Shown here piece after piece: positions 4,421 through 58,139 of a stretch of 64,000 bases of DNA. Location: the NCBI GenBank assembly GCA_964035015.1, contig OZ035997.1, positions 65,917,904 through 65,981,903 of the forward strand. The letters are read 5' to 3'. The number at the start of each line of letters is the position of its first letter. Position 1 is the first letter of the stretch. Origin of the DNA: Corallium rubrum. Taxonomy: Eukaryota > Cnidaria > Anthozoa > Scleralcyonacea > Coralliidae. Under the pieces are notes generated by a model. That model was given only the letters and a program-made list of their open reading frames with translations. It was not told where the DNA came from and searched no databases. Position numbers and translations under genes: made by a program.

Positions 4421-5318
4421 TTAAAAAACGCTTCGTTATTGGTCGTTTTTGCTTTGATTTATTTAATTTTAAATAAGAATGATAATTCTATATATAAGGT
4501 TCTCAAACAGATTAATAATTCATAAGATAATCAGCCAATCACAAGCGCTGAATTCTACCACGTGAAAGAACTTGAAATATACCAGGGAAGTACTGCATGG
4601 GAAGAGGACTAGAAATGTTATTTCCAGTCCAAGGAATAGAAAATAATATTTCTGGTCCTAGGACTTGAAATATGACGCCAAGAGTCATGGGAATAGATGC
4701 AACAAATCAACACACTTGTGATTCTTTTAATTTATCGCTCAATTCATAACACTCTATCACATCTTTTACTTGTAGTTATGAATAGTTACATTGCACGACC
4801 CACTTATATTTTTTGGCTGATACTGAATATCACGGTCGATTTCAACTTCTGATAGCTGATATGAATTAAAAGTTGACGATTCACTCTTCTTATTATGCTC
4901 ATTATTATCAAATTTCCGTTCAACTGGGCCTAATACCTTCGAGCACTTGGAAAGCGTTTGCACAACGGCTCGAAGTCTTCTTCATTGTCCACCATGCCGC
5001 CAATTCAACCTCAAACTCGTTTAACGAGGCACGAGTTACCAAAATACGCTTCATTTGCAATAAAATCAAATCATCAATAAACTCATTCACACAAACGGCT
5101 TTTTCATCCATCCACTAATTACTAATACACAAATTGATTTGGGAATACACTAAGAGATTTTGAGAAGTCGTTCAAAGGCCTCCAACTCGGACTAGACCGG
5201 GTTTTCAAGTACTTGCAATTCGTTCCAGTCCGAGGCGAAGTCCTCATTGTCGGCCTTTAAATATTACTTCTATGTCCATTAGTATACTTTTTGCAAAATT
5301 CTATCCCTATTAGTATTT

Positions 5319-16339: not shown

Positions 16340-16580
16340 GAAAATTGTAAATGCAAAAACGTTGTAGTACAATTGGTAAAGCTTTTGTTTGTTCAAAACA
16401 AGAAAAAAATTGTTCAAAAACCTCGGCTTCGCCTTGGTTTTCAACAAACGTCTCGGTGTTTGGATATCCTGATGAAACACTCCTCCTCGTGTATGATATA
16501 TTACATAATAAACACTCTTCTAATTTGGACAAAATATTTTAACTGTTATTGTTTCGCTCCCCGCAGGAACAAAACTATTG
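16340..16580. repeat. Dispersed module with CCTGATGAAACACTCCTCC core
   Basis: A block running from ACAAGAAAAAAATTG through CCTCGGCTTCGCCTTGG and GTTTGGATATCCTGATG to AAATATTTTAACTG is repeated at 56435-56605. In unit 2 it is separated from block C by about 8 kb of inserted sequence. A diverged relative lies near 54010-54150. It may be the end of a mobile element. Confidence 0.55.
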
Positions 16581-27397: not shown

Positions 27398-28004
27398 TCA
27401 GTTGGCACAGATAATATGGTCAGTTGATTGAAATCTTTTTATAAAGCTTTTTAATGATGGTGCCTTTTTTACTTGATCGGGTAAAGAGTTCCATAATTTA
27501 ATACCGGTAAAGGCAAAACTTGAATTATAGTAATCTGTTCTATTACTTGGGAGTTCAAGGTTTAATTTAGACCTTCTAAGCTTATAAGTAATATTGGGCA
27601 TTTCACTCGATTACATAGCGTGTACTAAGGATTTAGGGTATATGTAAAGATTTCCCGTAAGTATGATGGAGCAATACCATTTACTATTTTATACATCAGA
27701 ATTGCCTTTTGTTTCTCTCGCATCTCTTTTATATTCATCCATCCTAGCTCTTTTAGAATTTGCGCGGATGGTGTTGATATTGGAGCTCCCGTAATAATGC
27801 GGGCTGCTCTGTTTTGAAGGGGTTTTTTTCTAGTGTAACACCAATGCTATCCCAAACAATAGAGCAATATATGAAATATGGTTCTATAATCGCTCTGTAT
27901 AGAGACATTAGGTTTTCTTGATTAAAAATATTTTTGACCCGTCTCAGGGCTGCAAGATTACGGGAAACTTTTACACGAATAGCATATATATATGAGTATC
28001 CCAC
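27398..28004 (-). pseudogene. LINE-B C-terminal region
   Basis: Pieces in two frames (27753-28004 and 27398-27601) match the post-RT region: a segment with LYRAIIEPYFIYCSIVWDS and the terminal FAFTGIKLWNSLP motif characteristic of CR1/Jockey C-termini. Frameshifts lie between them. Confidence 0.75.
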
Positions 28005-28704
28005 GTTAAATTTTCATCTACCTCAACTCCCAAGCATTTAACTGAAGGAACTTGACTTAGTGAAATACCATTTACTGGCAACATAATAGAGGCCTCAAAG
28101 GTCGCCAATCTTTGTCTAGAACCAATTAACATAAATTCAGTTTTGAGGACATTCAATGTTAATTTATTGGCACAAAGCCATTCAAATATATTTTCCAGGT
28201 CAGAAGTCATTTCCTTTTGAATCGTTTCTAAATTGCAACCAGTAAAGGTCATATTAGTATCGTCAGCAAATAGTCTACCAACACTATTCTCCAAGCATTT
28301 CGGTAAGTCATTTATATATATAGTAAAAACAGGATTGGCCCCAGAATAGAACCCTGGGGAACGCCGCATGTAATGAATTCTTCCTTGGAGTAAACGCCAT
28401 TAACATAACAAACTTGTGTCCTATTTGACAAGTAGGACTTAAACCATTCAAGACTTCCTTCATTTAATCCATAACAAGCCAATTTCATCAGTAAAATTTC
28501 ATGGTCGATAGTATCGAAAGCTTTATTTAAGTCTAAAAATATTACACCGTTGACCATTCCCTTGTCAATATTAAAACACCATTGGTTTGTCATGTCAAGT
28601 AGCGCTGTCAAGGTTGAATGAACTGCACGGAAACCGGACTGCCTAGAGTTAATGATCTCATATTTAGACAAATAATCATAGACTTGGTTATAGATCGTTT
28701 TCAT
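27971..28704 (-). pseudogene. LINE-B reverse transcriptase palm fragment
   Basis: Two overlapping frames share the RT core. One carries QSGFRAVHST, DLNKAFDTIDH and GVPQGSILGP (28312-28704). The next carries INDLP and the catalytic FADD motif (27971-28369). A frameshift near 28330 separates them, so no full-length RT is encoded. Motif spacing fits the non-LTR RT of CR1/Jockey elements. Confidence 0.85.
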
Positions 28705-28856
28705 CTGACGTCACGGCGGCCATATTGGTGTACCAAAACAATGAAATGGCGGCCATATTGGTGTACGGTATGGGAATTAGCTCTTTCTTATTCAAATATT
28801 TCGTATTGTTTCATCACCCCAATGGGGCAACCGATCACGTGAGTGAAAACGATCTA
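28691..28856. mobile_element. 166-bp MITE with TA target duplication inside LINE-B
   Basis: TA at 28689-28690 and 28857-28858 flank ends TAGATCGTTTTCA and TGAAAACGATCTA. The element interrupts the LINE-B reverse transcriptase frame. The interior repeats GGCGGCCATATTGGTGTAC directly (about 28717 and 28748). TA duplication suggests Tc1/mariner mobilisation. It is non-coding. Confidence 0.75.
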
Positions 28857-30280: not shown

Positions 30281-30420
30281 TGTCAACATATTACGACATT
30301 CCCCGATCACCTCCTGAGGGATGGTGAGTAAGATGCAGAAGGACAACACGAGGGGGAATAAAGTGGTTATGAACCAACTATGAACAAGAGTTGAGGCTAC
30401 TTTTATTTACACGCATAACA
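30281..30420 (+). repeat. 5' LTR
   Basis: 140 bp, starting TGTCAACATATTACG and ending CGCATAACA. It differs from the 3' LTR at three positions by hand alignment. It is very short for a Gypsy LTR. Confidence 0.9.
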
Positions 30421-30440
30421 TGGTGTAAGGAGTGGGGTAG
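30421..30440 (+). promoter_or_regulatory. Primer-binding site
   Basis: TGGTGTAAGGAGTGGGGTAG starts directly after the 5' LTR. It begins with TGG, as expected for pairing with the CCA end of a tRNA primer. The tRNA is not assigned with certainty. Confidence 0.6.
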
Positions 30441-30644
30441 GACGCCCAGACAACCAAGAAGACCACAGAATCATTCTCCGAGCCCAAACTCGAGACCACA
30501 GCCAATACAACATCAAAACTGTAAGCATATTTACGAAGCTAAATTACTATCATTTCTCCGCCGCCATTTCTTTTCTGTTAGCCCAGATCATTCGCTTTTG
30601 TTTTGTTTTCTATTGGCAATACTATATCCAAACTGATCCAAACC

Positions 30645-32148
30645 ATGCCTAAAAACGAAAAGCCAATATTGGACGTGCAAGCAGTTCGAGCGAACGGAGA
30701 TCACTTTAGACACTGGGAAACCAGATTTCATGACTATTGTCTGCTCGAAGGATACAGAGATCCAACAAAGAACAGAACCACCGAAACAAATGCGCATTAT
30801 ATCGCCGCTAAAAGACCGTTCGAAGTAGCTGTACTCCGAACGGCGATACCGAGCTCGGAATGGAACACACTCGACGATGTCATCGCCCAAAAAATCCCAG
30901 AAGAAGACCAAAGTAAACCATGGATTTGGCTTAAAAAATCAAGGAACACTACGTCGGAGCGAGCACTTTGATGCAGGACCCCGCTATCACTTCTGGGTAA
31001 AGTTGTCCCAACCAGCAACAGCCCCAATAACAGCTTGGGAAACTATGGTTCGCACTGCCGCAGGACGCTGTTCTTTTGGTGCTCAAGCCGATGAATTTAT
31101 GCGTGATAAATTTCTATTCAGTCTCAACGAATCTTTCAGCCATTTCCGTGAGGACATCTTCTATCGTGATGGCCAAAGAAAGCCAGAGGACCCACAGTTT
31201 ACTCTTGCCTTTGTGGTCAGCCAGGCCTTATCGTATGAGGCTGCTCAGAGCACAAACAGATTACTACAAAATCCTACTACTGAGGAACAAATTCACTATA
31301 CCACAACTCGCAGTTCCAACAGAGGTCCATTCGCACCAAAGCTTTCATCTAAGACAACCAATCCAGGTATACCCAGAAAGTCATGTTGGTATTGTGGTAA
31401 CAAAGTAAATCACCCACGTGAATCATGTCCAGCTTATGGACAAACCTGCAACTATTGTCGAAAGACTGGCCATTTTGCAAAAGTATGCATGCAAGTCACA
31501 AAAGACAAAGCTACTCGACCCAGTCTCCCCAAGGTCACTCCACTAAAACAAGAAAAAGTCAGAAGGATCAACAATGAAGAATCACAACCTTGGCCCCTCT
31601 ATGGAGAAGCTGTTCAACATGAACATTGTTTCACCTTTTCACACCAAGAGCAGCCAGACACCTCGGAGATGAGCCATTCACATCCTAACTCAAAAGGATA
31701 CTTTGTAACGCTTCAACCATATGCTGGACCACCCATCCACCCAATCGGCCAAGTTACACTCAAGGCTAGTAGAGGACCGCATACTGATACTCTCACCTTT
31801 CAAGTCATAGATACGAGCCAACCAGCACTTCTCAGCGTCAGTGCCAGCAAACAGTTGGGCGCACTATCACTTCATGCTGATTTCGTTCACAAATGCTCTT
31901 CTATTGGCTCATCGATCACACAAGACACCATAGACTCAGCAATAGGACCACCTCCACCCACACCCGACACTTCCAACAGATCGTGGCCACCTCTTGGATC
32001 ACTTACAATGGACTTCATCACTCAACAATGTCCATCATTGTTCACAGGAACTGGATACCTTGGTCCGCCTGTAGACTTTGATCTTGATCCGAATGTCCAG
32101 CCTACCCAGGCACCCACCCACCGCCAGCCAGTCTCCAAGCTAGAATAG
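30645..32148 (+). pseudogene. gag and protease remnant of the LTR element
   Basis: The reading starts at an ATG at 30645, shifts frame near 30935 and again near 30985, then runs to a TAG at 32146. The C-terminal part of gag has two zinc knuckles (CWYCGNKVNHPRESC and CNYCRKTGHFAKVC). Downstream sequence resembles the flank of a retropepsin (QPALLSVSASKQLGAL), but the catalytic DTG/DSG triplet is not recognisable. The protease core is therefore deleted or lost. Confidence 0.8.
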
Positions 32149-32914
32149 ATCAAAGCAGCACTGGATGCCTATGAAACCTCTGGTCAACTCATTCGGGTTT
32201 CCCAACCAACAGCGTGGATATCCAACATGGTTGTACGAGACCTCCAACTCCAACCAAACCCGGGAAACTGCGAGTATGCTTAGACCCATCCCAAACCCTA
32301 AACAAGGCCATACGTCGACCGAAATACACCATCCCTACACTGGAAGAGAACTTGCACAAGTTACACAACATGAAACACATGACAGTCATCGACATGAAAG
32401 AGGCATTCCAGAACATTCCATTAACTTTGCGCTCTTCTTTGATGACAACCATGTCCACACCTTGGGTCGGTACAGGTGGACCCGGCTTCCTTTTGAGATA
32501 TCGTCTGCTTCAGAAGAATGGCAACGCAGAATTCACATGGTTCTTGAAGGCCTTAAGGTCATTAGCATTGCTGACGACATCCTCGTTCCAGGTTGTGGCA
32601 AAACAGAGAAGGAGGCGCAGATCGATTACGACTGAAATTTAATTGCAGTGCTCGAAAGCCTGGAGAAAAACCACGTCAAGATTAACCTCACCAAGATGAA
32701 ATTTTTGACACGAAGGGCAACCTTCATGGGCCATTTAATCACTCCAGATGGCCTTTAGCCTGATCCGACAACAGTTCAAGCTGTTTCGCACTTACCAACA
32801 CCTCAAGATAAGCAGGGAGTCCGCCGTTTCCTCGGAGCCGTCAACTACCTGAGCAAATTTTGCCCCCAGTTAAGCAGCGTTACACAGCCTTTACGCAACC
32901 TCACGAAAGGTGAT
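32149..32914 (+). pseudogene. Reverse transcriptase remnant of the LTR element
   Basis: RT motifs are scattered over frames: LRVCLDPSQTLNKAIRRP and TVIDMKEAFQNIPL in one (32214-32642), RLPFEISSASEEWQRR and the catalytic IADDILV in another (32165-32635). A further in-frame TAG lies near 32756, in place of the usual Lys of the GLKPD motif. It is not translatable as one protein. Confidence 0.85.
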
Positions 32915-33713
32915 GTGCCATTCCTGTGGTCGACCCAACACCAGAAAGCGTTCGACGAAACCAAGACTCTGGCTACTTCAGCACCTTGTCTTAAATACTA
33001 CGATGTGAATGCGCCAGTGATACTCCAAGTAGATGCTTCCGACTATGGCTTAGGAGCAGCCCTTCTTCAACCTTCTCAACAAAACAGCGACGGTAGCTTT
33101 GACGAGACATCTCTCCAGCCTGTCGCCTACAGCTCCAAAAGCTTGACCGCCACCGAACGATACGCGCAAATAGAAAAAGAGTGCCTCGCTATCGTTGAAG
33201 CTTTTAACAAGTTTGACCAGTGGCTTCTCGGTAAAGCTAACATCATAGTGCATACTGATCACCAACCTCTTCAGTCCATATTTCAAAAAGATCTGGCTGC
33301 AACCCCGAAACGACTACAGAAAATGATGCTCTTCTTGCAGCGTTACAACTTTACTGTCTTATACAGAAAGGGTTCCTCACTCTACCTGGCAGATACCCTC
33401 TCTAGAGCTCCTTGCAAAGAAATCGATTCTACTTTGGAAAATTTCGACACCTTTAAAGTTTTCCGAACACACCTTGCCCAGCTTGATGCAGTCTCTACTG
33501 CTCTTACTGACACTACTCGCGAGCAATTACGTGCAGCAACCGCAGCGTGCGCAGACATACAGCTTCTTGCACATCACATCATCCATGGTTGGCCTCCAAC
33601 GAAGCATCACTTGCCCAAACAACTCCAACTTTTCTGGAATTTCAGAGATGAGCTCAGCATAGGCGATGGTTTAATTCTCAAATCAGCTCGCGCCATCGTA
33701 CCGTCTTCTCATA
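32915..33713 (+). pseudogene. RNase H domain remnant
   Basis: This open stretch has LQVDASDYGLGAAL, QPVAYSSKSL, ERYAQIEKECLAIV and HTDHQPLQSIF, the standard Ty3/Gypsy RNase H motifs with Asp/Glu/Asp in place. ADTLSRAP then leads into the connection to integrase. The frame is cut by the MITE at 33714. Confidence 0.85.
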
Positions 33714-34836
33714 GCCAGAAATTCAAGACATTTGCAATGAGCATGTACGAACTTTAAAAAACAAAATGGCCGAAACGCTACAAAGGAATAGTATAGAGGG
33801 CGTCATTTTTTGTAAATTTAAGCCAGTTCAATCGCTGTTACAAATTTGCCTCACTAATTTTGAACATAACAAAACATTTGTAGTCAAATAAGATAAATAT
33901 CATGTCATATTATTACCTCCTAGTACGTCCATTTCTTTATCCGTATTGCACAGATCTTGCTCCTATGAATTGTATACAATGTGCCCAATTTCCGCGAAAA
34001 CGGCCAGTTTGGTTCTAAATTTTACGACCCGTTTCATTTCTTGTCAAATTTGCCTCACTTCCCTCGTCAACTTCACATCATCAAGTATTCCTTCTGTTAT
34101 TTTCGAAGTGATCTGATGTATTTTAGATCGTCCATTTTTGCCGAGAAATGCAGTAAAGATTGAACGTGAATTGTCCACAAACGATAATTTTCATGTTAGC
34201 GAAGACGCGATAAACATGTGAAAACAACATCTGTCCATTTTAAAAAGCCGGCCATATTTGATCAAAACGAAGCCCAGAATCAGGGATTTCTATGAGCAAT
34301 GATGGTTAGTATGGGTGAATACGCTGTTGCCTCGTTTTACCCCTTGTGATGCCGTATACCCTATGCTTTCTCCGCGCCAAATGAGTGATATGGCAAATAT
34401 TGAAAGAATATGACAATTAAGATGTTAAAAAAATAATTGTTCCTCTTGCAGATATATATTCTTAAAAGACATTCAGTGATTCACAGAATCACTGTATAAT
34501 TTAAATAATTCACACATCACATGTTGGGTAAAATTCGTCAAAGTTTACTTACATGGTGTCGTTTTCTTCGCCCAATGATTCGCTCAGCAGAATAGAATTT
34601 AGAATTTATCTCTTTGCTGTCGTGTTGTACAACACAGCAGAGGAAAACGAGTTTAATTGCGTGTAGTCGACACGGCTTCCCCTTGTGCTGGCGGCCATTT
34701 CGCCTCCTTCGCTATGAATTTTATGTGAAGTTCGAAGTAATCAAACGCTAAGCCGCTGGGAAAATCATGGCAGGCGCGTCCAATTTTCACACGCAAAACC
34801 GCTGTCTCCGACAGGCGCATGTCTTGAATTTCTGGC
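33714..34836. mobile_element. 1.1-kb TIR element inside the LTR retrotransposon
   Basis: GCCAGAAATTCAAGACAT at 33714-33731 is the exact reverse complement of 34819-34836. The element separates the RNase H and integrase frames. CAT occurs at both outer edges and may be the target duplication. I recognise no transposase. Confidence 0.8.
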
Positions 34837-34837
34837 C

Positions 34838-36022
34838 ATGCTACGTCCAAAGATACTTCACAAGATTCGCCAATCACACAGAGGTTCAGAATACTGCCTT
34901 CGTTTTGCTCGAGAAGCCGTCTTCTGGCCTGGAATGGTAAAAGACATAGAACATACCTGCTCCAGCTGTATTACCTGTACCAAATATGGAAAGCAAGCAA
35001 CCGCAGAACCCATGTTATCCCACCCAACACCTACACGCCCTTGGCAAATCGTATCGCAAGACCTATTTGAGCTCAAAAACCACCATTACCTTGTCACCGT
35101 GGACCACTACAGCGACTTCTACGAGTTAGATTATCTTCCAAACACTCTATCAACTACGATCATCCAGCACACGAAAGCACATTTTGCTCGACATGGCATT
35201 CCACTGCGTTGCATCACAGACAACGGCCCACAATTTATCTCAAAAGAATACAAGCAATTTTCACAATGCTATGGTTTTCAACACATCACCGCGTCGCCAT
35301 ACTGGTTGCAAAGTAACGGTAAGGCAGAGGCCGCTGTCAACGATGCAAAATCGATCTTGAAGAAATCAGAAGATTACCACCTTGCTCTTCTTAACATACG
35401 CAACACCCCACCACGTGGACATTCTTTCTCTCCAGCGCAGCGTCTGATGGGGAGGCGCACTCGCTCCACCCTTCCACTAACTGAGGAGCTTCTCAGGCCT
35501 GGCACACCGGATCCTAAAATCGTATCCCAACAGATCACCGACCGCCGTGCAACATCGAAAATCTCCTATGACAAGTTGGCACAATCTCCTTTACCCCCTT
35601 TAGCTCCTGGATCATATGCGTATGCAAAACCACGACCCACACAGCGGGGAGAGCCGTGGGCTAACGGACAAATCACCGACTCACCTACTCCACGTTCCTA
35701 CAACCTGAACACGGGAAGTCGCATTCTTCGTCGAAATCGCACCCAGTTACGACCAGCAGCAGCTCCGACCAATTTACCTGAACATCATCCATTAACCCAA
35801 CCACTGACCAACACAAATCAACACAGTCCAGAACCAAGCGAGGCTCTACCTGCTACGCCACCATCTACCGAAACCACACCAGACCAAACCAATGCCCAAA
35901 ATCATGTTCTTCAACAATCAATTGGGTCAACGCAACCATCTTCTACCCAATCTGGCAGACGTATACGCACACCCAGCAGATTTAAAGACTACGCGCTTTA
36001 CGAACTGTCTTTGCGCAAATAA
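34838..36022 (+). pseudogene. Integrase remnant of the LTR element
   Basis: This 394-residue open stretch has a partial HHCC zinc-binding region (CSSCITC), then the DDE core: Asp in SQDLFEL, Asp in TDNGPQF and Glu in NGKAEAAV. The tail is rich in Pro, Thr and Gln, without an obvious chromodomain. The frame is open but is cut off from the rest of pol. Confidence 0.85.
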
Positions 36023-36152
36023 AAGACTTTATCATATAACAAGGGCAGGCCACATTTTGCTGCCTACCCACCTATTACTTTCGTTGCTTATTTTAGACGC
36101 ATTGTATTGACTATGCATTTGTTGAAATTCAAGTTACATTTAGTTTTGTTTA

Positions 36153-36164
36153 GAGGAAGGGGGA
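36153..36164 (+). promoter_or_regulatory. Polypurine tract
   Basis: The purine-only run GAGGAAGGGGGA directly precedes the 3' LTR, as expected for the plus-strand primer of a retrotransposon. Confidence 0.7.
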
Positions 36165-36304
36165 TGTCAACATATTACGACATTCCCCGATCACCTCCTG
36201 AGGGATGGTGAGTAAGATGTAGAAGGACAACACGAGGGGGAATAAAGTGGTTATGAACCGACTATGAACAAGAGTTGAGGCTACTATTATTTACACGCAT
36301 AACA
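36165..36304 (+). repeat. 3' LTR
   Basis: 140 bp, TGT...ACA, nearly identical to the 5' LTR (three differences by hand alignment). Confidence 0.9.
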
Positions 36305-36755
36305 TCATTTACTATTGCTAACTGTGAATTTAATGTGGATTCAATGACTTCCGGACACTTTGCAGAGAAAAACAGAACCGTATCATCGGCATACATCAAG
36401 ACACTACACCGGACGATACAATCCGGTAGATCATTAATAAAAAGAACGAACAAAAGCGGGCCAAGTATAGATCCCTGTGGTACACCAGTGGAGATTTTAC
36501 AAGGAACGGAGAAGGAATTTTCGTACTGAACAACTTGACTTCGATTATTAAACTAGTCTCTGAACCATAATAATTCTGAATTCCGTATACCATAACGAGA
36601 CAATTTTTCAATTAACAAACCATGGTCCACGGTGTCGAAAGCTTTCCTTAAGTCTATGAATACGGAGCCAGTTAACATTCCTTGGTCCATCGATCGACGA
36701 ATTGAATCAGATAAAGAGATAGTTGCTAGTTCAGTCGAATATCCCTTTCTAACAA
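36305..36755 (-). mobile_element. LINE-A, RT part upstream of the LTR insertion
   Basis: The minus strand encodes KAFDTVDHGLL, GVPQGSILGPLLFVLFINDLP and the catalytic YADD motif in two frames. It belongs to the same LINE as 29798-30280, from which it is separated by the LTR element. It joins block B' at about 36760. Confidence 0.8.
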
Positions 36756-37839: not shown

Positions 37840-40800
37840 GTAAGTAATTTAAATGAAAGTACTGCTTGTTTTTAGCACTATTTCAAAAACAGACAAAGAA
37901 TCTATTTTATTTTTTTATATTCATTTATTTATTTCAGTTCATTTACTCATTTCAGATTATTCATTCATTTATTCATTTATTTACTTCCTTCCTTTTCTCC
38001 TTCCTTTTTTCTTCTTTCCTCCTTCCTCTTTCCCTCCTTTTCTATATTCGTTTAATTTAGGCAAATCTACACCCATAAAAATCTCACAGCTTATTGACAA
38101 GATGAGTTTGCAACAAGCTTGTAGCAAGCCTGTTGACAAGTTGTTAACAAGTTTTGTTATATACCAAAGACTTTCGTTCGCCAAAGATGAAATCCTATTG
38201 GTCAAATCGTGGTCACGCGTTGTTCAACAAACTCAACGTTTCTTTCTGCCGAGGGAAACATTGCACTGTTTCCCTCTGATGTCATGATTATTGCATCAGA
38301 TCAAGAACTTTGGATTTTTCGGAACATTTTGAAAACAAGAGCTTGTTTCGAGCTTGTTTGGGAAGAAATAGTCCATTTTCCAAAGGAAAGAATATCTATA
38401 CACATCTTCAAAGAAGGTCTGAAGAAAACCTGGATAAATTTAAAGCTGTTCTTTGTACTTGTTGAGTCTAGTGTATTTGTTTAATTGAATTGAAATTACG
38501 AAGACAAAGTCAAAGTGTTTTGGAAAATCTTTTTGTCTTTTCAAGTTTCGAGTCAACTTGGTATTTTGTATTTTAAAAGTCTTTGGTATATAACAAAACG
38601 CTTGTTGACTTTTGCCTCGAGAAACATCGAGTTTTACGGTCCCTCAGGCTTCAATGTCACCCTCGGGTGACATTGAATCCTTTGGGTCCGTAAAACTCGA
38701 TGTTTCCCTCGGCGCCAGTGAACAATTTTATACTAATTTTATCACGCCAGTGCAGACTTCTTGTTGTCAACCTTGCAGAAATTTGTTAAGTGCAAAGCGG
38801 TAACAAGTTGTTGCAACAATTTTTCAATAGTCCGTTAATTGAAGTCATCAACTTTGTTGCAAGTTGTTAACAATCTGTTACCGACATGGATGTTAACAAA
38901 CTAGAAACAACCACCACAAATGCATTCCAGTAATGGCATGTTGTAAACGGTAAACGACCGTTTTATCGTGTAGTTTAGAAGGGGACAATTTTTCTGTGAT
39001 ACTAGCTCAATTTCATTTCTTACCCCACATTCTACTTTATCTCTACCAAACCTCGGTTTAGCACAAACGTCTGTTGCACACGTTTTGGTTACCTTTTTTG
39101 CCCTATATAAATATTTTTTAAACTGAAAACAGATTTTTCAAGCAAGAAACAGAAACATTGACATGGTAATTGAATTCGTTGCTGAGACTGCAAATATTCT
39201 ACAAGACAAAGGAAGAAAGAATGACTTTGAAAATATAGTAGATAGATCTATTGAACTTCTTCAAGGTAACCTAATGTTTAAAGGATTAATGTTAATGTTG
39301 GTTTTTCAAAAATGTGATGGAAATAGAGAATCTTTGGATATGTTGAAGTACTATATTGAGCTCGACAAATTATTAAGTCTTTTAGTTGAGTTAAAGAGTT
39401 TAAGAATGGCTATTCTTCTGAGAATTGCAGAAATATATCTTAATACTTCACATTATAGTAAAACATTAGAATATACCCTAAGAGCTGAAACGATTGCAGA
39501 TGAAATTAAAGACAAATCAAGCAAACTAATATGTTACGAAAAATTAGGAAATGCGCGTCTAGGCCTGGCGGAGTATAAAGAAGCCATTGGCTATTTCAAT
39601 AAAGGTCTAGCAACCAGTACTGAAATGGGAGATTGGTCAGGAATAGCATGTAACAATGGGAGTTTAGGGAATGCCTATCTTAGGCTGGGGCAGTATGGAA
39701 AAGCCATGAACTATTACAATAAAGGTCTAGCAATTAGCACTGAAATAGGAGATCGGTTAGGAATAGCAAACAACAATGGAAATTTGGGGAATGTCTATAT
39801 GAGTATGGGGCAGTATGAAGATGCCATTTACTATTACAACAAAGGTCTAGCAATTAGCACTGAAATAGGAAATCGGTCAGGAATAGCAAGTAACAATGGA
39901 AATTTAGGGAATGCCTATCGTCGTTTCGCGAAGTATGAAAAAGCTATTGACTATTACAATGAAGGTCTAGCGGTTAGCACTGAAATAGGAGATCGGTCAG
40001 GAATGGGAAGTAACAATGGAAATTTAGGGAAAGTCTATTTCAGTATGGGGCAGTATGAAAAAGCCATTTACTATTGCAATAAAAGTCTAGCAATTTGCAC
40101 TGAAATAGGAGATCGGTCAGGAATAGCAAATAACAATGGAAATTTGGGGAATGTATATTTGAGTATGGGGCAGTATGAAAAAGCTACTGACTATTACAAT
40201 GAAGGTCTAGCAATTAGCACTGAAATAGGAGAACGGTCAGGAGTAGCAAGTAACAATGGAAATTTAGGGAATGTCTATTTGAGTATGGGGCAGTGTGGAA
40301 AAGCCATTTACTATTACAACAAAGGACTAGCAATCAGCACTGAAATAGGAGATCGGTCCGGAATAGCAAGTAACAGTGGAAGTTTAGGGAATGCATATTC
40401 TAAGATGGGGCTGTTTCAAAAATCTCTCAAATCTTTTGGAGAAACATTTAAAATTAGTTTAGAAATTTGTGATCGAAGTTTGGAATGTATTTCTTTAGGA
40501 AACATAGGGAACTCTTACTTGTCACTGTATTTGTTTGTAACAGAAAATGTGAGCAATTTGAAAAACGCGGTGTCATTTCTTAAGAGATCTGTTATGGGTG
40601 GTGATAAGATTTTATTCGACTTGAGCATTGACAAAAATAAGATATCATTTACTAGTGAATACTTTCAACGATATGCGGCTCTAATGTATTGTTTTATTTT
40701 GTTAGAACGCATTGAAGCCGCATTTTTAGTTATTGACCTTGGAAAGGCCAAGGCACTGCATGCTTTTATCGAAAAACGAAAGAAATCAGAGATTGATGAC

Positions 40801-48061: not shown

Positions 48062-50891
48062 TGTAAATGCAGAAAAGATGTAATACAATGCAAATTTTAT
48101 CAGGTTGAGTATTAAGCATTGATTCTCAAAATGGTTATGCGGATTTTGAAGGTTAGGCAGTTTCCCCAAAGTTCCTCAAGCTTATGCACTATATGACTTT
48201 TATCAGTTTTCGATTATCACGGTTTTCATAATAGTGTTAATTGTTGAAACATTTTGAAAATCAAGGCCTTGTTTAAAGATTGTCTCGTAGTGGGGGAGGG
48301 GGGTCTGCAGGAATGCCCCCGGAGAAAATTTAATATTCAGAGTCTCGGAAAAGCCATTTCCTGCATTCTGAAAGGTGATTTTTAGGAACACTGAAGGTTA
48401 TCAAAAGGTCATCAAAACTTGTTAAAATACAACACATTTCTGACCACTTTCCTATGTCCAGGGGCGGATCTAGAAATTTTTAAAATTAGAGTCTCTGAAA
48501 ACGCATTTCCTGCATTTTGAGAGTGATCTAGAGTTATATTGTAGGATCGTTTTATACATGTTTTTCACCGAGATCTTTGTATAAATTTTACTCAAATCAA
48601 AATTTTTCTTTTCTCTTTCAAGCCAAGATCTTCTAGTTATTCAATAAAATGTTTTGGAGTAATTGATCCAATATGAATCGCAATGTATGTTTAACTAGCT
48701 TTGTGTGACATATAAACTAACCACTAGTCAAGCAGCTAGGTATCCTTTGGCCATTATTTAGAATTCTATTGAGTATTCCGTCTAATGCCAGCCAATTTTT
48801 TCTTGAAACAAGAATAATCAAAGCAACCCTGCTAGTGTAATATTAATATTAACAATTTATAGGTGTCAGCTAGCATTTGTCAGATCACTGTTTGGAACTC
48901 CAGTCTCCAGATCAGGAGTCCCTTTACGTTTTTATATACTGTCTTTCCCTCGATAAAGCGAGAATAACAACAATGGAGTTGATGAGAGCCAGAAGATGTA
49001 AACTGAGTTATAGTAAATAGACTCGTAAATATCGTCGCTCAATACAGTCTGTCAAACGATTAAGAGAGTGTTAAATCACCGACTGACAAGTCTCCGAGTC
49101 TTGCAGATAATATTTCAAAGTTGAACCATGATAGAAATGCTGTGTTTCAGTCGATGAGGATTATAAACAATGTATTGAGTGAGAGAGGTCGCGGCTCTCG
49201 GTTTCATCTCATGCTTGTTCTTCAATTTGATCGATGCTTTAAAAATTTATATAGTCTGAGTATAAACACCACACACTCCTACAGTATAAACTAGCGTCTG
49301 ACGATCAACAATTTTAGTAGAGAGGAACTCGTAATATAAATAAAGAAACCAAACAAACCAACATCTTTTCCTTAATTTTCTTGTGAACTTATCATTTAGT
49401 ATTTGTACACATCTGTCACAGGCACTCTGAAGAACTGGGTCAAGACAGACTGACGTGCACTACCGACTACCACTACCGGAGCCAACTAGATTTGATTGCA
49501 TTATTTCGCAATAAAATTGTAACAAGATATGGCAAGGGTGTCTGACCGTGGCTCCCGCCAAATTCAGCCACTCTATTCTGGCTCTTTGATTGGTTTGCAC
49601 CCCTTAAATAGTCCGCTGACCGTGGCTGAATTTAGCAGATCGCCCCGCTGACCGTGGCTGAATTTAGCAGAAGTGTTCTCCAATTTCTTCAGCGAATTCG
49701 TAGCACGTTCGGTAACTTTTTCGGCCACTCTCGCCACATTCTCGGACTTCTAACTACTTGAGACCGATTGCAGTGCAACGGATTGTCAAGGATGCGAAAA
49801 TCCGCTGCTATTTTGACAATCGGTTTAGTATTTTTACGGTGGTTAATGTCGTCCTTACGTCGACTATCCTTTTGTTATTAGTAGTTTCTATTTTTGAAAT
49901 ACCAATTATATTATTTAATTTGGAATAATTTGGAAAATATGACCATGGCTCAAGCCACGCTCGCACCCCTCTAGATCCGCCCCTGATGTCGGAACTTATC
50001 AGTATGCCTAACATATTAATGCTGCTGTTACAGTACTGCCTAGTGGGTTAGGACTATCCCATGAAAGCATTTATTAGCAACATTAATTTTAGTGAAAGAA
50101 CAGTTAATATCATCAATAGAAATGCTGGACAATATTGTTAATTATTTAAGCATTTTAATTTCAAATGTTTGAAACAAAAAGTGGGGGTGAGTTAAGTATA
50201 TATATTTCTTCATTTGTTTGTACTTCAGCGAAAACAAACTTTCTCTGGGGAAAGGAGAGCAAAATCAATTCTTAGAGAGCTCAAGGTGGGAGCAAGGCTT
50301 GGGGGAGGGCCTTCCCTCATTTAACTTGTATGTTAAAAAAGGCCCTGGTAAATGCAGAAAAGATGTAATACAGTACAAATTTTATCATGTTTAATAGGCC
50401 ATATTCATAAATGGCCGTGGAATTAATATTCTTTTATATTGATAAAAATTAGCCCCTTTGAACTCGTTTTCATGCGCCCGAAATTTAAAAGAATCTTTAC
50501 TCTAAAACGAGGTCAGAGGGGCTAATTTATATGCACGTAAAAGGATTTTAAATCGTAGGCCATTTATATTAAACATTTATCGGCAATTTATTGAATGAAA
50601 GAGAAGTTGGGTACTGAGTGTTGTGTATTGTTCATAGTTGTAAACACATTTGCTTCAACCTTTTGTAAAAAGCATGATTTCTCGTGTAATTTTGAAAAAA
50701 CGTATTTGTCTTTTCTAAATTGTCTTAAAAATCATGATATAACAGTATACAGAAGGCCTGACTGATTAAAGGTAAGTTATGTAATATGATATTTTATATG
50801 GTTTACGTAATATGAGTTTGTCAAAATTTCTAATAGGCTTATCTGGAAGATGTTGTTGTTTGCAGTAGGTAACAGAGTGCTTGATAGCTTC

Positions 50892-50893
<2 letters not shown>
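48062..50893. other. Unit 2 accessory stretch; no gene seen
   Basis: A sequence of about 36 bp (TAAATGCAGAAAAGATGTAA and on) occurs at 48063 and again at about 50352, bracketing 2.3 kb. Inside lies the TIR element 48459-49985. The flanks from 50390 to 50893 show no gene. Confidence 0.5.
48459..49985. mobile_element. 1.5-kb TIR element with 5-bp target duplication
   Basis: CAGGGGCGGATCTAGA (48459-48474) is the exact reverse complement of 49970-49985. ATGTC flanks both ends directly (48454-48458 and 49986-49990). The interior has a direct repeat of CTGACCGTGGCTGAATTTAG near 49615 and 49650. I recognise no transposase. Confidence 0.75.

Positions 50894-50955
<62 letters not shown>
50894..50955. 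repeat. (TA)n tract, left flank of the ribozyme array
   Basis: About 60 bp of alternating TA directly abuts the first hammerhead monomer. Confidence 0.95.
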
Positions 50956-50958
<3 letters not shown>

Positions 50959-51506
50959 CAATCTACAGACACGTGTTTCGCTGTACTACACTCATCAGTG
51001 TAGCTTGGAACAATCTGAATGAATTTCATCAATTACTTATACACATGCGATCGTCGATGACAACCGCATGTGGTGAAGTACATTCAGATAGCGTGAAGTG
51101 CGCATGGGCCCAGAGTGCTCAAACTTCCACAAGGGTAGTGAGCGTTGCATTATCGCTAATAGGTACCCACGGCAACTTCACAGAGTGCTCAACAACACCG
51201 AAGTGATGGAGCGTACATAGTTCAATCTACAGACACGTGTTTCGCTGTAGCTTGTAGCTTGTATCAGTGTAGCTTGGAACAATCTGAATGAATTTCATCA
51301 ATTACTTATACACATGCGATCGTCGATGACAACCGCATGTGGGACAGCATTGGTGAAGTACATTCAGATAGCGTGAAGTGCGCATGGGCCCAGAGTGCTC
51401 AAACTTCCACAAGGGTAGTGAGCGTTGCATTATCGCTAATAGGTACCCACGGCAACTTCACAGAGTGCTCAACAACACCGAAGTGATGGAGCGTACATAG
51501 TTCAAT

Positions 51507-51548
51507 CTACAGACACGTGTTTCGCTGTACTACAGCTCATCAGCGTAG
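51507..51548 (-). ncRNA. Hammerhead ribozyme, monomer 3
   Basis: The full core is present. Stem I has one G-U wobble at the CUGAUGA side (CUACG with UGUAG). Confidence 0.75.
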
Positions 51549-52058
51549 CTTGGAACAATCTGAATGAATTTCATCAATTACTTATACACATGCGATCGTC
51601 GATGACAACCGCATGTGGGACAGCATTGGTGAAGTACATTCAGATAGCGTGAAGTGCGCATGGGCCCAGAGTGCTCAAACTTCCACAAGGGTAGTGAGCG
51701 TTGCATTATAGCTAATAGGTACCCACGGCAACTTCACAGAGTGCTCAACAACACCGAAGTGACGGAGCGTACATAGTTCAATCTACAGACACGTGTTTCT
51801 CTGTACTACAGCTCATCAGTGTTGCTTGGAACAATCTGAATGAATTTCATCAATTACTTATACACATGCGATCGTCGATGACAACCGCATGTGGGACAGC
51901 ATTGGTGAAGTACATTCAGATAGCGTGAAGTGCGCATGGGCCCAGAGTGCTCAAACTTCCACAAGGGTAGTGAGCGTTGCATTATCGCTAATAGGTACCC
52001 ACGGCAAATTCACAGAGTGCTCAACATCACCGAAGTGATGGAGCGTACATAGTTCAAT

Positions 52059-52100
52059 CTACAGACACGTGTTTCGCTGTACTACAGCTCATCAGTGTAG
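52059..52100 (-). ncRNA. Hammerhead ribozyme, monomer 5
   Basis: Minus strand, 42 nt: CUACA, CUGAUGA, stem II GCUGU-AGU-ACAGC, GAA, then AC-ACGU-GU as a two-pair stem III, cleavage triplet GUC, then UGUAG pairing with CUACA as stem I. Cleavage is predicted between the complements of 52064 and 52063. Stem III is part of the self-complementary ACACGUGU, so two ribozymes can pair to make a dimeric, more stable active form. Stem I may extend by about three further pairs after a G-A mismatch. Confidence 0.85.
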
Positions 52101-52334
52101 CTTGGAACAATCTGAATGAATTTCATCAATTACTTATACACATGCGATCGTCGATGACAACCGCATGTGGGACAGCATTGGTGAAGTACACTCAGATAGC
52201 GTGAAGTGCGCATGGGCCCAGAGTGCTCAAACTTCCACAAGGGTAGTGAGCGTTGCATTATCGCTAATAGGTACCCACGGCAACTTCACAGAGTGCTCAA
52301 CAACACCGAAGTGATGGAGCGTAGATAGTTCAAT

Positions 52335-52376
52335 CTACAGACACGTGTTTCGCTGTACTACAGCTCATCAGTGTAG
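52335..52376 (-). ncRNA. Hammerhead ribozyme, monomer 6
   Basis: The core, stems and GUC triplet are identical to those of monomer 5. Confidence 0.85.
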
Positions 52377-52885
52377 CTTGGAACAATCTGAATGAATTTC
52401 ATCAATTACTTATACACATGCGATCGTCGATGACAACCGCATGTGGGACAGCATTGGTGAAGTACATTCAGATAGCGTGAAGTGCGCATGGTCTAGAGTG
52501 CTCAAACTTCCACAAGGGTAGTGAGCGTTGCATTATCGCTAATAGGTACCCGAGGCAACTTCACAGAGTGCTCAACAACACCGAAGTGATGGAGCGTACA
52601 TAGTTCAATCTACAGACACGTGTTTCGCTGTACTACAGCTCATCAGGGTTGCTTGGAACAATCTGAATGAATTTCATCAATTACTTACACACCTGCGATC
52701 GTCGATGACAACCGCATGTGGGACAGCATTGGTGAAGTACATTCAGATAGCGTGAAGTGCGCATGGGCCCAGAGTGCTCAAACTTCCACAAGGGTAGTGA
52801 GCGTTGCATTATCGCTAATAGGTACCCACGGCAACTTCACAGAGTGCTCAACAACACCGAAGTGACGGAGCGTACATAGTTCAAT

Positions 52886-52927
52886 CTACAGACACGTGTT
52901 TCGCTGTACTACAGCTCATCAGTGTAG
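52886..52927 (-). ncRNA. Hammerhead ribozyme, monomer 8
   Basis: The core, stems and GUC triplet are identical to those of monomer 5. Confidence 0.85.
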
Positions 52928-53161
52928 CTTGGAACAATCTGAATGAATTTCATCAATTACTTATACACATGCGATCGTCGATGACAACCGCATGTGGGAC
53001 AGCATTGGTGAAGTACATTCAGATAGCCTGAAGTGCACGTGGGCCCAGAGTGCTCAAACTTCCACAAGGGTAGTGAGCGTTGCATTATCGCTAATAGGTA
53101 CCCACGGCAACTTCACAGAGTGCTCAACAACACCGAAGTGATGGAGCGTACATAGTTCAAT

Positions 53162-53203
53162 CTACAGACACGTGTTTCGCTGTACTACAGCTCATCAGTG
53201 TAG
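53162..53203 (-). ncRNA. Hammerhead ribozyme, monomer 9
   Basis: The core, stems and GUC triplet are identical to those of monomer 5. The flanking stem I extension has one base change (GGAGC for GGAAC on the plus strand). Confidence 0.85.
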
Positions 53204-53437
53204 CTTGGAGCAATCTGAATGAATTTCATCAATTACTTATATACATGCGATCGTCGATGACAACCGCATGTGGGACAGCATTGGTGAAGTACATTCAGAT
53301 AGCGTGAACTGCGCATGGGCCCAGAGTGCTCAAACTTCCACAAGGGAAGTGAGCGTTGCATTATCGCTAATAGGTACCCACGGCAACTTCACAGAGTGCT
53401 CAACAACACCGAAGTGATGGAGCGTACATAGTTCAAT

Positions 53438-53479
53438 CTACAGACACGTGTTTCGCTGTACTACAGCTCATCAGTGTAG
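53438..53479 (-). ncRNA. Hammerhead ribozyme, monomer 10
   Basis: The core, stems and GUC triplet are identical to those of monomer 5. This is the rightmost copy; its monomer runs into the right TA tract at 53700. Confidence 0.85.
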
Positions 53480-53700
53480 CTTGGAACAATCTGAATGAAT
53501 TTCATCAATTACTTATACACATGCGATCGTCGATGACAACCGCATGTGGGACAGCATTGGTGAAGTACATTCAGATAGCGTGAAGTGCGCATGGGCCCAG
53601 AGTGCTCAAACTTCCACAAGGGTAGTGAGCGTTGCATTATCGCTAATAGGTACCCACGGCAACTTCACAGAGTGCTCAACAACACCGAAGTGATGGAGCG

Positions 53701-53703
53701 TAT

Positions 53704-53763
<60 letters not shown>
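53701..53763. repeat. (TA)n tract, right flank of the ribozyme array
   Basis: About 60 bp of TA with ACATG and TGTA interruptions, directly following the last monomer. Confidence 0.95.
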
Positions 53764-54238
53764 CAAACTCATTAATAATTTATGAGATAATCAGCCAATT
53801 ACAATAGTTCATTCCATCACTGATTGAAGTTGGATACTCAAGTAAAACCCTTGATATTAGATGAAAACCGGTGTTCTTCTAATTCTTAAGATCTCAATTA
53901 TCTACGCAAAATAAACAAGTTGTTGTATGAATAAATTTTGCACACACTCATGAATAAAATCCCACAAGGGTTTACTTTAATTGCATTTTCCAATTGAAAT
54001 CGCTCGGTTGAGATGCCATATCAACAACTCGTTTATCCTGTTTTATCAGGGGAAACCAAACACTTGAAAACAATAAAATCATTTAATTTGGTCTTTCGCC
54101 TTGTGCTTACATCATTTTTTTCTCGTGTTGGGATCCCCTGATGAAACATACAAACTTGTGTGTGTGTGGACGGACCATACGCGGTGAAGATTGTGGGCAC
54201 TGGGTACCAAAGCTCGAAAGTAGGAAAAAGCAATAGTA

Positions 54239-54380
54239 AAGGCGGTTTTCCACTAGGCGACATTTGTCGACGACTCGACATTTTTCTTTTGTCTTGGCTA
54301 ATTAGTTCCACTCGAGAGCTTGCGAGACAGAAGAAAATGTCGCTTCGCGCGACATTTTTCGCCTAGTGGAAAACCGCCTT
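54239..54380. mobile_element. 142-bp MITE
   Basis: AAGGCGGTTTTCCACTAGGC at the left end is exactly complementary to the right end (GCCTAGTGGAAAACCGCCTT). The next bases GA/TC also pair. The interior repeats CGACATTT words in both orientations. It is too short to code. Confidence 0.75.
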
Positions 54381-55984
54381 AAAACTGGTCAAGAAAACCG
54401 ACGAAGATAAAGTTTAAACTTACCGTAAAAATATAGAGCAGCCGCTCTCAGTGATCACGAACATTTAGTAGCAATACTGTTCGAGTTTCTCTGTTTACAT
54501 CCTATCACTGTTAAGTTTGTTTTCTATTTTGTGTGTTCTTAATATTAATAGTATTTTAAACGTATATTCGTTTCACGTTTTGGCTTGCCCGTCTTCTTTT
54601 AAACAATTTTCTTATTGTAAACCACTTGTGACTTAGCGTAGCTTGTCTATAACTTGGCATAAAAATCGGAAAAGGAGAAATTTTGCTTCTGTAGAACGTA
54701 TAAATGCTGTTTAAATATGTCTTAACATGTAGGTGAATTGGTGAAAACAGTTTCAGCACAGTGGTTTTTGTTATATTAGTTTATGGGTGTTCAGACATAT
54801 TTATGTTGACCCGTTGCTAGGGAAAACTTGATTTGACCACAGAGCTTCTAGAGCTTTACAAATTTGATCTCCGTGCTAGAAATGCTAGATATTCTGCACG
54901 TAGTATATATGAATGAAGTTCTTTCGTTTGATTACGTCATACAGTGTCGTCATTATGACGTCATTGAGATAAGAAAAAACCTATAATTTCCGCCAACTTA
55001 AAGGTTTTGCTAACTAAAGAAGTTTCACTAGAACCAGACTTGTTATGTGGAAAAAAGTACCCATGCGTTTCTCAATTGAGCAAATCTTAATGACTTCATG
55101 GCCGTTTTAATGAAATTTTAAGGGATATTTAAAAAAATAAAACAGAATATCTTTGTCATTTTTAGTTTATTCATAAAATCCATGCGTCCTTTTTGGGAGA
55201 CATGTTTTCCCTAGGTGTAAACGAAAGAAAAGTAACGATTCGATAAATACTCGCAGAAATTATAGGAATCTTGTGAGCTCATGTTTTTACGACTGAATGC
55301 CACTCAACCAAGCCTGAAAGAATCAGGCGCGAGCCCTCCTCTTGCCTCCTGCCTGATCGGAGCTTGCCAGCTAAATTGCGAGTTCAGCCGTGGTTTCAAG
55401 CCAAGAATGCTCGAAAATCGTCTTGTTCTACATACAAAGCTCTGCGGATTTCTAAATTCCAAATCAAATCAAATATCTCGACGTGACGACGTCCTTCGTT
55501 TATTTTTCCATCTATCGTCGTCTGTGTACCGAAGTTCTTCAACTCTTCAAGTGTTTTTGCCAGAACATTCTACAGCAAAGGAATAGTTTTCTTTTGTTTT
55601 GTTTTGGTACTTTTTCTCACAAACTTGCTCGCCTCTTTTCGGGTTTTTTTGGTTATCGTTTTATACCTTTATGCAGTGTATAAGTACAAAAACACGTTTT
55701 TGTGAAAAGATTTCTCCGACTGGAAGTAATGTCCTTAACAACCGGTTACCTAGCAACGAAATACGTCCGAACACCCTTAAAGGAATTTGAAATGCCATCA
55801 ATGAATATAGTCGTGTCAGGCAGTTGTTTGAGAAGTTTTCAATCTATTGTTTTTCAGTGGAAAATGAAAATATTTTTGATGCTCTAGCAATGCTTCTTGT
55901 TAAAAACATCAGGAAGAAATGGAAAGAAAGAACTGCAAAATATAAACTTCATATTTTTTTTAAACTTTAACACTTCACTGTTAT

Positions 55985-56125
55985 TTTGAAGGAATTCATT
56001 TAACTCCAAAAAAGGAGTTACAAAAAAAGATTCAAAATAACACCCTTTTCGGAGTTGAATATGACTCCTTTTCTGGAGTTAAATGAATTCCTATATTTTG
56101 GAGTTAAAATACCCATATTAGGGAG
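55985..56125. repeat. Cluster of GGAGTTAA-type words
   Basis: At least five GGAGTT words in direct and inverted form, mostly followed by A(A)(A), including a hairpin of GGAATTCATTTAACTCC with GGAGTTAAATGAATTCC. A second cluster lies at 58140-58365 across the long microsatellite. Confidence 0.6.
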
Positions 56126-56149
56126 TAAAAAAAAAGTTGCATCTCACCA

Positions 56150-56240
56150 GAATCAATCTCCTGACGTCGATTATACAGGGCTTGTCTAGAAGTCAACTTA
56201 CCTTAACCACTGCGCCATCCGAGCTTGCTTATAGTAAAGA
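56150..56240 (-). other. tRNA-like relic (SINE head candidate)
   Basis: The minus strand reads GGATGGCGCAGTGGTTAAGG, which contains a perfect internal A-box (TGGCGCAGTGG). A degenerate B-box (AGATTGATTCT) follows about 60 nt later. The usual anticodon arm is not recognisable, so this is more likely a tRNA-derived SINE or pseudogene than a tRNA gene. Confidence 0.35.
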
Positions 56241-56434
56241 CTAAGATTTATTGTTTATAACCTAATTTTTGGCAAGGACCAAACTCTCAAACTCATTGAT
56301 ACTTCATGAGCCAAAAACAAAGGAAATTTTCACCTCTTCAAAAGCCAACTTTCGCCTCGAAGGATATCCATTTCGCCTCGAAGATAAAGATTTGGTTGTA
56401 TAGAGGAGGCCATTAAATGACAATGGATTGTTAA

Positions 56435-56605: not shown

Positions 56606-56623
56606 CAGTGAAGTGAAAAGAAA

Positions 56624-57522
56624 AACAAACAAACAAACAAACAAACAAACAAACAAACAAACAAACAAACAAACAAACAAACAAACAAACAAACAAACAA
56701 ACAAACAAACGAACGAACGAACGAACGAACGAACGAACGAACGAACGAACGAACGAACGAACGAACGAACGAACGAACGAACGAACGAACGAACGAACGA
56801 ACGAACCAAACCACACCAAACCAAACCAAACCAAACCAAACCAAACCAAACCAAGCCAAGCCAAGCCAAGCCAAGCCAAGCCAAGCCAAGCCAAGCCATG
56901 CCAAGCCAAGCCAAGCCAAGCCAAGCCAAGCCAAGCCAAGCCAAGCCAAGCCAAGCCAAGCCAAGCCAAGCCAAGCCAAGCCAAGCCAAGCCAAGCCAAG
57001 CCAAGCCAAGCCAAGCCAAGCCAAGCCAAGCCAAGCCAAGCCAAGCCAAGCCAAGCCAAGCCAAGCCAAGCCAAGCCAAGCCAAGCCAAGCCAAGCCAAG
57101 CCAAGCCAAGCCAAGCCAAGCCAAGCCAAGCCAAGCCAAGCCAAGCCAAGCCAAGCCAAGCCAAGCCAAGCCAAGCCAAGCCAAGCCAAGCCAAGCCAAG
57201 CCAAGCCAAGCCAAGCCAAGCCAAGCCAAGCCAAGCCAAGCCAAGCCAAGCCAAGCCAAGCCTAGCCTAGCCAAGCCAAACCAAAACGGAACGGAACGGG
57301 ACGGGATGAGACGGGACGGGACGGGACGGACCAAAACGAAACGGAACGAAACGAAACGAAACGAAACGAAACGAAACGAAACGAAACGAAACGAAACGAA
57401 ACGAAACGAAACGAAACGAAACGAAACGAAACGAAACGAAACGAAACAAAACAAAACAAAACAAAACAAAACAAAACAAAACAAAACAAAACAAAACAAA
57501 ACAAAACAAAACAAAACAAAAC

Positions 57523-57553
<31 letters not shown>

Positions 57554-57794
57554 CAAAACAAAACAAAACAAAACAAAACAAAACAAAACAAAACAAAACA
57601 AAACAAAACAAAACAAAACAAAACAAAACAAAACAAAACAAAACAAAACAAAACAAAACAAAACAAAACAAAACAAAACAAAACAAAACAAAACAAAACA
57701 AAACAAAACAAAACAAAACAAAACAAAACAAAACAAAACAAAACAAAACAAAACAAAACAAAACAAAACAAAACAAAACAAAACAAAACAAAAC
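56624..57794. repeat. Graded tetra- to pentanucleotide microsatellite
   Basis: Successive near-pure blocks: AAAC (56624-56708), GAAC (56709-56806), CCAAA (56807-56850), CCAAG (56851-57265, about 82 units), a short mixed ACGGG/CGGAA stretch (57280-57334), ACGAA (57335-57445) and ACAAA (57446-57794). Open frames in several phases on both strands (up to 452 residues) are artefacts of the stop-free repeats. Confidence 0.95.
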
Positions 57795-58139
57795 AGAATC
57801 ATGCTCCAACAATATTTATACTCACACTGGACATTCTTTCGTATTGGCCCAGTATATTTCCAAACAGCACTGCAGTTTTTATCGCAAGGCTAGTTACCTT
57901 GAACAGCTTGAAATTTTTTGGAACACCACATTTGAAATTTAACATATATCCATAATTTAAATAGCTGAAAGTGCTTGACTTCAGGTCTAATTCTTATTAT
58001 TCTCTCCAAGAACAGAAAACTTTATAAACTTAATTCTGCTCCAAGATAGTAAACTATACTTCATCAAATTAATTTCTTCTACAGCACTTTATGAACTTCA
58101 GCCAGAAAACGTGAACCGCACGCGGATGGGGATCCTAGC

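Follow-up and report, generated by a model that had tools for sequence, protein, structure and literature searches.

Tandem type I hammerhead ribozymes between TA tracts in Corallium rubrum: a candidate non-LTR animal retrozyme array

Non-LTR retrozymes of animals have neither LTRs nor PBS and PPT. Those of cnidarians are tandem repeats of approximately 220–350 bp that carry type I hammerhead ribozymes (HHRs) and, according to the sections of the literature drawn on here, occur in Acropora millepora and other stony corals as well as in jellyfish and sea anemones (PMC7229834). The A. millepora elements, with repeats of 220–240 bp, yield both linear and circular RNA; repeats in jellyfish and sea anemones measure approximately 230–350 bp, and published retrozyme arrays reach 62-mers (PMC7229834). 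Tandem type I HHRs are also found in newt and axolotl, in repeats of approximately 330–350 bp characterized by a palindromic tetraloop, a very short stem III (a single pair in Amex1) and possible dimeric action (PMC7229834). HHR-bearing Penelope-like elements (PLEs) combine type I HHRs, tandem copies and coding capacity with an AT-rich target and with internal initiation by the reverse transcriptase (RT), which sets the ends of the copies (PMC11167929), and their HHRs are described as minimal, i.e. without helix III nucleotides or contacts between loops 1 and 2 (PMC7761336; PMC7229834). In the PLE of Anolis, the RT starts at an internal RNA site and cuts AT-rich DNA, and cleavage by the HHR is not needed for insertion in vitro (PMC11167929). 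Finally, the non-autonomous LTR retrozymes of plants produce HHR-processed circles and have type III HHRs, a dimeric layout with LTRs, PBS and PPT, and 4-bp target duplications (PMC7761336; PMC7229834).

Within a stretch of 64,000 nucleotides of Corallium rubrum DNA (the window, i.e. everything analysed here), tandem repeats occupy positions 50953–53706, with a period of 276 bp, 10.0 copies and 96% matches in TRF, which bears out the ten direct monomers of about 276 bp described in the initial annotation. Monomer alignment gives lengths from copy 1 to copy 10 of 264, 280, 276, 276, 276, 275, 276, 276, 276 and 279 bp, the last of which includes TA from the flank; the RNA sense is the minus strand. 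Like the cnidarian non-LTR retrozymes (PMC7229834), the array shows four features of this animal class, i.e. an HHR (of type I), short tandem repeats present in multiple copies, an apparently non-coding unit with a GC content below 50% (46%) and a self-paired predicted circle. A unit of 276 bp present 10.0 times lies within the range of the multi-copy animal retrozymes (approximately 150–450 bp); it is longer than that of A. millepora, to which it is likened by description rather than by sequence, and smaller than those of newt and axolotl, with which it has the short stem III, here of two pairs, and the palindromic tetraloop in common. It differs from the plant elements in its type I HHRs and its ten units. 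The retrozyme-type pattern recognized in the initial annotation, a short repeat in tandem that bears type I HHRs and has no recognizable coding, thus agrees with the published descriptions as far as these are cited here, and we consider the array very probably a non-LTR animal retrozyme. Among mobile elements driven by ribozymes, still a young class, it is a further candidate and a well-preserved one. Mobility, the formation of circular RNA and the use of a Penelope RT are what we infer for it.

By its sequence, the minus-strand motif has the layout of a type I hammerhead. Monomer alignment confirms the conserved order that had been proposed for this strand: intact copies read CUACA, CUGAUGA, stem II, GAAA, stem III, GUC and UGUAG, with a stem II of five pairs and a three-base loop, and a stem III that is opened by GAAA and consists of two pairs and an ACGU tetraloop. 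Stem I is extended beyond an internal loop by an outer GUUC/GAAC pairing. A descriptor demanding the full core, at least four, three and two pairs in stems I, II and III, respectively, A15.1–U16.1 and a non-G cleavage base is passed by copies 3, 5, 6, 8, 9 and 10 and failed by copies 1, 2, 4 and 7. Intact HHRs, all on the minus strand, are those of copy 5 (52064–52095, from C3 to the cleavage-site C17), copy 6 (52340–52371), copy 8 (52891–52922) and copy 10 (53443–53474); copy 9 (53167–53198) retains core and inner stems and has lost one outer pair of stem I. These five copies are intact in their core, in the inner part of stem I and in stem II, and copy 3 (51512–51543) passes the descriptor with a U–G wobble at the first pair of stem I, so that the six intact copies counted in the initial annotation stand if this wobble is accepted and become five otherwise. 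The core is also kept in copy 1 (50963–51003), where stem II is altered, in copy 4 (51773–51850), where one pair of stem I and the first pair of stem II are broken, and in copy 7 (52617–52665), where two pairs of stem I are broken; in copy 2 (51217–51290) a rearrangement has broken both core and stem II.

At the level of the whole unit, a consensus RNA circle of 276 nt, cut after GUC, is predicted to be unusually self-paired, with a folding energy of -91.1 kcal/mol (z -4.7 against 200 shuffles) and 70% of its bases paired; the circle of the opposite strand reaches z -2.8. The active HHR fold itself is predicted to be unfavoured by energy models alone, which ignore tertiary contacts. In the isolated 64-nt motif the minimum-energy structure is not the HHR, with pair probabilities of at most 0.005 for stem III and 0.32 for the first pair of stem I, and a circle constrained to form stems I, II and III is less stable by 5.2 kcal/mol (-85.9 versus -91.1). 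Since stem III and its ACGU tetraloop lie within the palindrome ACACGUGU, neighbouring ribozymes could pair as a dimeric HHR, and in a long transcript adjacent HHRs could be joined in this way through ACACGUGU. Such a dimer, as drawn, comes to -27.2 versus -22.4 for two monomers; the best cofold of two HHRs (-33.4) has a pairing other than that of the drawn dimer.

Both ends of the array adjoin TA tracts, a (TA)31 tract at 50894–50955 on the plus-left side and a further TA tract at 53701–53763 on the plus-right side, as delimited by TRF and comparison of the ends. In the rest of the window, with array and flanks set aside, TA tracts of at least 20 bp make up approximately 0.5% of the sequence. 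On the left, the unit is entered at GTTCAATC, which lies 12 nt from the cut made by the ribozyme, or 15 nt if an ATA that may be part of the flank is included; on the right, it is left at GGAGCGTA, i.e. at the same position of the unit. For ends placed at random, an agreement to within 8 nt would arise only about 6% of the time. At the nine inner junctions the sequence reads GGAGCGTACATAGTTC, with GGAGCGTAGATAGTTC at one of them. The breaks thus fall in TACATA, 12–15 nt past the cut and not at the cleavage site, so that each copy is continuous across the cut, as a circular or uncut template predicts. Target-site duplications, which in non-LTR animal retrozymes exceed 4 bp where they occur, would be masked here by the TA tracts on both sides. 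Ends of a carrier transposon were considered for the array flanks and rejected, since 49990–50893 and 53764–54700 have a single match to each other, which is inverted, 12 bp long and has an E value of 0.10. For cnidarian retrozymes, the cited sections of PMC7229834 make no mention of (TA)n flanks or same-phase ends, and we found no mention of (TA)n as a target of animal retrozymes in the titles and abstract openings of the open-licence papers listed for this subject.

How could such an array have formed? Judging from the motif and its spacing, minus-strand transcripts of the array would be cut after GUC at each intact HHR, giving RNAs of 276 nt. A host RNA ligase could then close these into highly self-paired circles, as reported for other animal retrozymes, and the RT of another element, most likely a Penelope-like one, would copy a circle repeatedly from a nick in AT-rich DNA, with repeated rounds leaving many units in one event. 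Copying round and round at an AT-rich nick is suggested by the star-like divergence of the copies (see below) taken together with the same-phase ends and the (TA)n flanks, and the features of the array would fit a target-primed reverse transcription of the rolling-circle type into AT-rich DNA, which one locus cannot prove. The nearest precedent that we found for the ends is, by analogy, the PLE RT of Anolis, where the start lies approximately 85–92 nt past the cut (our subtraction of the cut site at 26 from the start at 111–118; PMC11167929), compared with the 12–15 nt seen here. In its most specific form, i.e. a circular RNA copied for about ten rounds from a (TA)n nick, with a fixed start 12–15 nt past the cut (at UAUGUA) and next to a CCAAT/TATA-like module that then came to drive the array in the ribozyme sense, this scenario is a tentative one that we put forward as rather doubtful in its full detail. 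If true, it would be a retrozyme counterpart of internal initiation by PLE RTs and would tie retrozymes to that class of enzymes. What may be new is that an integration into (TA)n would be recorded here with its internal phase fixed, although a single locus cannot establish this; should the same ends be common to other copies, the question of which RT moves animal retrozymes would become testable from genome sequence.

An alternative explanation of these ends is an extrachromosomal DNA circle of whole units that integrated via (TA)n microhomology, with no reverse transcription of a circular RNA. A single opening of one circle would suffice to give same-phase ends in TACATA and 10.0 units, and the rarity of such agreement between random ends speaks for it as well. 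Yet it leaves the ribozyme of the unit unexplained, and a cDNA with (TA)n microhomology at both ends would look identical; we regard this alternative as unlikely, if still worth taking seriously.

The module invoked above for driving a retrozyme array borders the right TA tract on its outer side, at 53764–53804 on the minus strand, i.e. just upstream of the array in the ribozyme sense. Motif searches identified in it an ATTGG box, the near-palindromic CTCATAAATTATTAATGAG and TATATA, and on the minus strand ATTGG, near-palindrome, TATATA and array follow one another as they would in a promoter directed into the array. Allowing at most three mismatches, the pattern AAACTCATTAATNATTNATGAG matches ten times in the window compared with 0.05 expected. 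Three of these matches are the reverse reading of the near-palindrome, which leaves seven places, and because 4505 and 36920 as well as 13267 and 44963 lie in paralogous segments, about five places are independent. ATTGG stands at a fixed distance in four of the seven (the longer pattern has four matches, with 0 expected), and TATATA continues three of these four. From this arrangement we infer that the module may act as a promoter in the ribozyme sense. It could just as well be a fragment of some other dispersed repeat, and it would provide a source, already in place, of the right TA tract. A comparable repeat was not found in the left flank, where the best other match has an E value of 0.63. 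The dispersed motif, AAACTCATTAATAATTCATGAG, is located at 4505, 13267, 36920, 43683, 44963, 53765 and 56289, and is missing at 12092, the counterpart of 43683 in the other of two paralogous copies described below.

The history of the array can be read from the differences among its copies, which deviate from their consensus by approximately 1%. Excluding gaps, there are 30 substitutions, 28 of them distinct; the count includes four that fall within the rearrangement of copy 2 and one in copy 10, at the edge of the array. No fewer than 26 of the 28 distinct substitutions are confined to one copy, and the remaining two are common to non-adjacent copies (3 and 7; 4 and 7). Distance along the array and difference between copies show no positive relation (Spearman -0.30, or -0.49 without copy 2). 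In simulated single bursts, singletons average 0.985, and 5.6% of 500 runs have a share as low as that observed. Gradual growth, simulated at three rates with 500 runs each (196, 237 and 133 kept), gives averages of 47–52%, and a share as high as that observed occurs in 2 of 196, 0 of 237 and 1 of 133 kept runs (3 of 566). The star-like divergence and the rarity of gradual runs with so many singletons therefore favour, as far as these sequences and simulations go, an origin of the copies in one burst. The two common substitutions, together with the few burst runs that have so few singletons, make some later exchange among copies likely. When the rearrangement in copy 2 and the edge base are disregarded, 25 substitutions remain, every one of them in copies 3–9 (51497–53427). 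Two substitution-free end copies would have a probability of 0.003 under uniform mutation, in a pattern spotted after the fact and with an overall test that is not significant (p 0.16); they are not what one would expect of an ageing satellite array.

The HHR was also considered as a substitution-poor region and rejected as such: without copy 2 it carries 0.0117 substitutions per site versus 0.0101 in the rest of the unit (Fisher p 0.81), and with copy 2 the values are 0.0175 and 0.0091. Since its density is no lower than elsewhere, purifying selection on the ribozyme is not seen in this array. This is one of the observations that would suit a satellite DNA with a relic hammerhead, grown by unequal crossing-over without circles and now immobile, as would the damage to four of the ten HHRs and the two substitutions common to several copies. 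Integrated retrozyme copies, however, are expected to decay anyway, and the star-like divergence, the relation between distance and difference, which is not positive, and the singleton share so seldom produced by gradual growth all stand against a relic satellite, which we therefore judge improbable.

With respect to coding content, the array frames of at least 60 amino acids are on the plus strand and reach a maximum of 131 amino acids, with two minus-strand frames of 61 and 63 amino acids touching the left edge of the array. A Pfam scan of three array frames gave no match, and one plus-strand frame of the unit, used as protein bait, yielded no candidate homologue. In 20 frames from the window scanned with Pfam, six have TPR-CHAT, RVT_1, RNase H or integrase domains, RVT_1 being present in two LINE-like frames that overlap each other and gypsy-type domains in a further two, and no family is labelled Penelope, in agreement with the earlier remark that the window holds no Penelope-like RT. 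Could the array nevertheless be a PLE fragment (a pseudo-LTR) rather than a separate non-autonomous retrozyme? PLEs do have type I HHRs and tandem copies, and one that was tested cuts AT-rich DNA (PMC11167929), but the limited size of the array frames, the missing Penelope label in the 20 scanned frames and the fuller motif, whose stem III has two pairs and a tetraloop and whose stem I has an internal loop, set against the minimal HHRs reported for PLEs in the cited sections (PMC7761336; PMC7229834), make this a very improbable reading.

The initial annotation had proposed a covariance search for the HHR. At the gathering cut-off Rfam returned no match in the whole window. Below it there were 23 matches, including Hammerhead_1 on copy 1 (22.4 bits, cut-off 34), Hammerhead_3 on copy 7 (18.9 bits) and HH9 on copy 3 (18.5 bits), and in a separate scan of 101 bases from copy 10, HH9 scored a likewise sub-threshold 21.3 bits (E 0.0018, 53421–53491). 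These sub-threshold HHR families fall at the expected place and on the expected strand, and the HH9 alignment reaches the outer stem I. Independent of covariance models, the descriptor is expected to match on average 0.02 times per window (from both strands of 100 dinucleotide-shuffled versions of the whole window) and has no match in the window outside the array. As the ten copies are one repeated sequence, they count as a single observation at a chance rate of approximately 0.02, i.e. about fifty times that rate. A merely accidental resemblance to an HHR would suit the Rfam scores under the gathering cut-offs, but given six descriptor matches with 0.02 expected and no others in the window, it is the least credible of all alternatives. 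An exact 25-base stretch of the HHR had no match in the collections viral_contigs and genome_contigs, and a gapped HHR pattern had none in viral_contigs; as the two collections consist largely of viral and prokaryotic sequences, little can be concluded from this with regard to animals.

At the larger scale, the window contains two diverged copies of a TPR-CHAT-bearing segment, unit 1 (1–20919) and unit 2 (23366–64000), the latter harbouring the candidate retrozyme array. Among eleven paralogous segments of at least 400 bp, ten are approximately 6–12% diverged (about 88–94% identical) and the eleventh, in simple repeats, approximately 20%. Homology breaks at 16372 in unit 1 and at 48089 and 56427 in unit 2, i.e. 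an entire 8.3-kb block (48090–56427) is missing from unit 1. With low complexity masked, the only match of this block in bases 1–30280 is 42 bp long (53763–53804) and belongs to the dispersed motif; Pfam domains were not found in ten frames from the block. It had been argued that the array, being absent from unit 1, arrived after the duplication. The argument from an empty site in unit 1 does not hold as stated, because the whole block is absent there, but a later arrival is still likely from the sequence divergence, since the copies differ from their consensus by only about 1% compared with approximately 6–12% in ten of the eleven paralogous segments.

A number of further observations concern the surroundings. 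The number of TPR units differs between the paralogues, with 120-bp repeats at 7710–8908 and 39572–40422, and for the best 120 of 655 relatives of the TPR-CHAT protein the named organisms are Dendronephthya gigantea or Paramuricea clavata. A Ty3/gypsy-type element at 30281–36305 has direct repeats of 141 bp at its ends, which are 97.9% identical, and pol pieces at 32759–33757 and 34718–36022. The best 120 of 462 relatives of the gypsy integrase include one 97% match over 75% of the query; the top match with an organism name is Oculina patagonica (71%), and Hydractinia, Paramuricea, Dendronephthya, Acropora, Saccoglossus and two fishes are also represented. The named relatives of both proteins suggest an anthozoan host. 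The two overlapping frames with LINE-like RVT_1 fragments are located at 27971–28710 on the minus strand. A 44-bp direct repeat (93%) at 48063–48106 and 50348–50391 flanks 2.2 kb, and one of its copies spans the left breakpoint of the block found only in unit 2. To the right of the array, a MITE-like short element with inverted ends AAGGCGGTTTTCCACTAGGCGA was seen by eye at 54239–54380, and a low-complexity tandem tract at 56623–57795 is composed of AAAC, CCAAG and CAAAA units.
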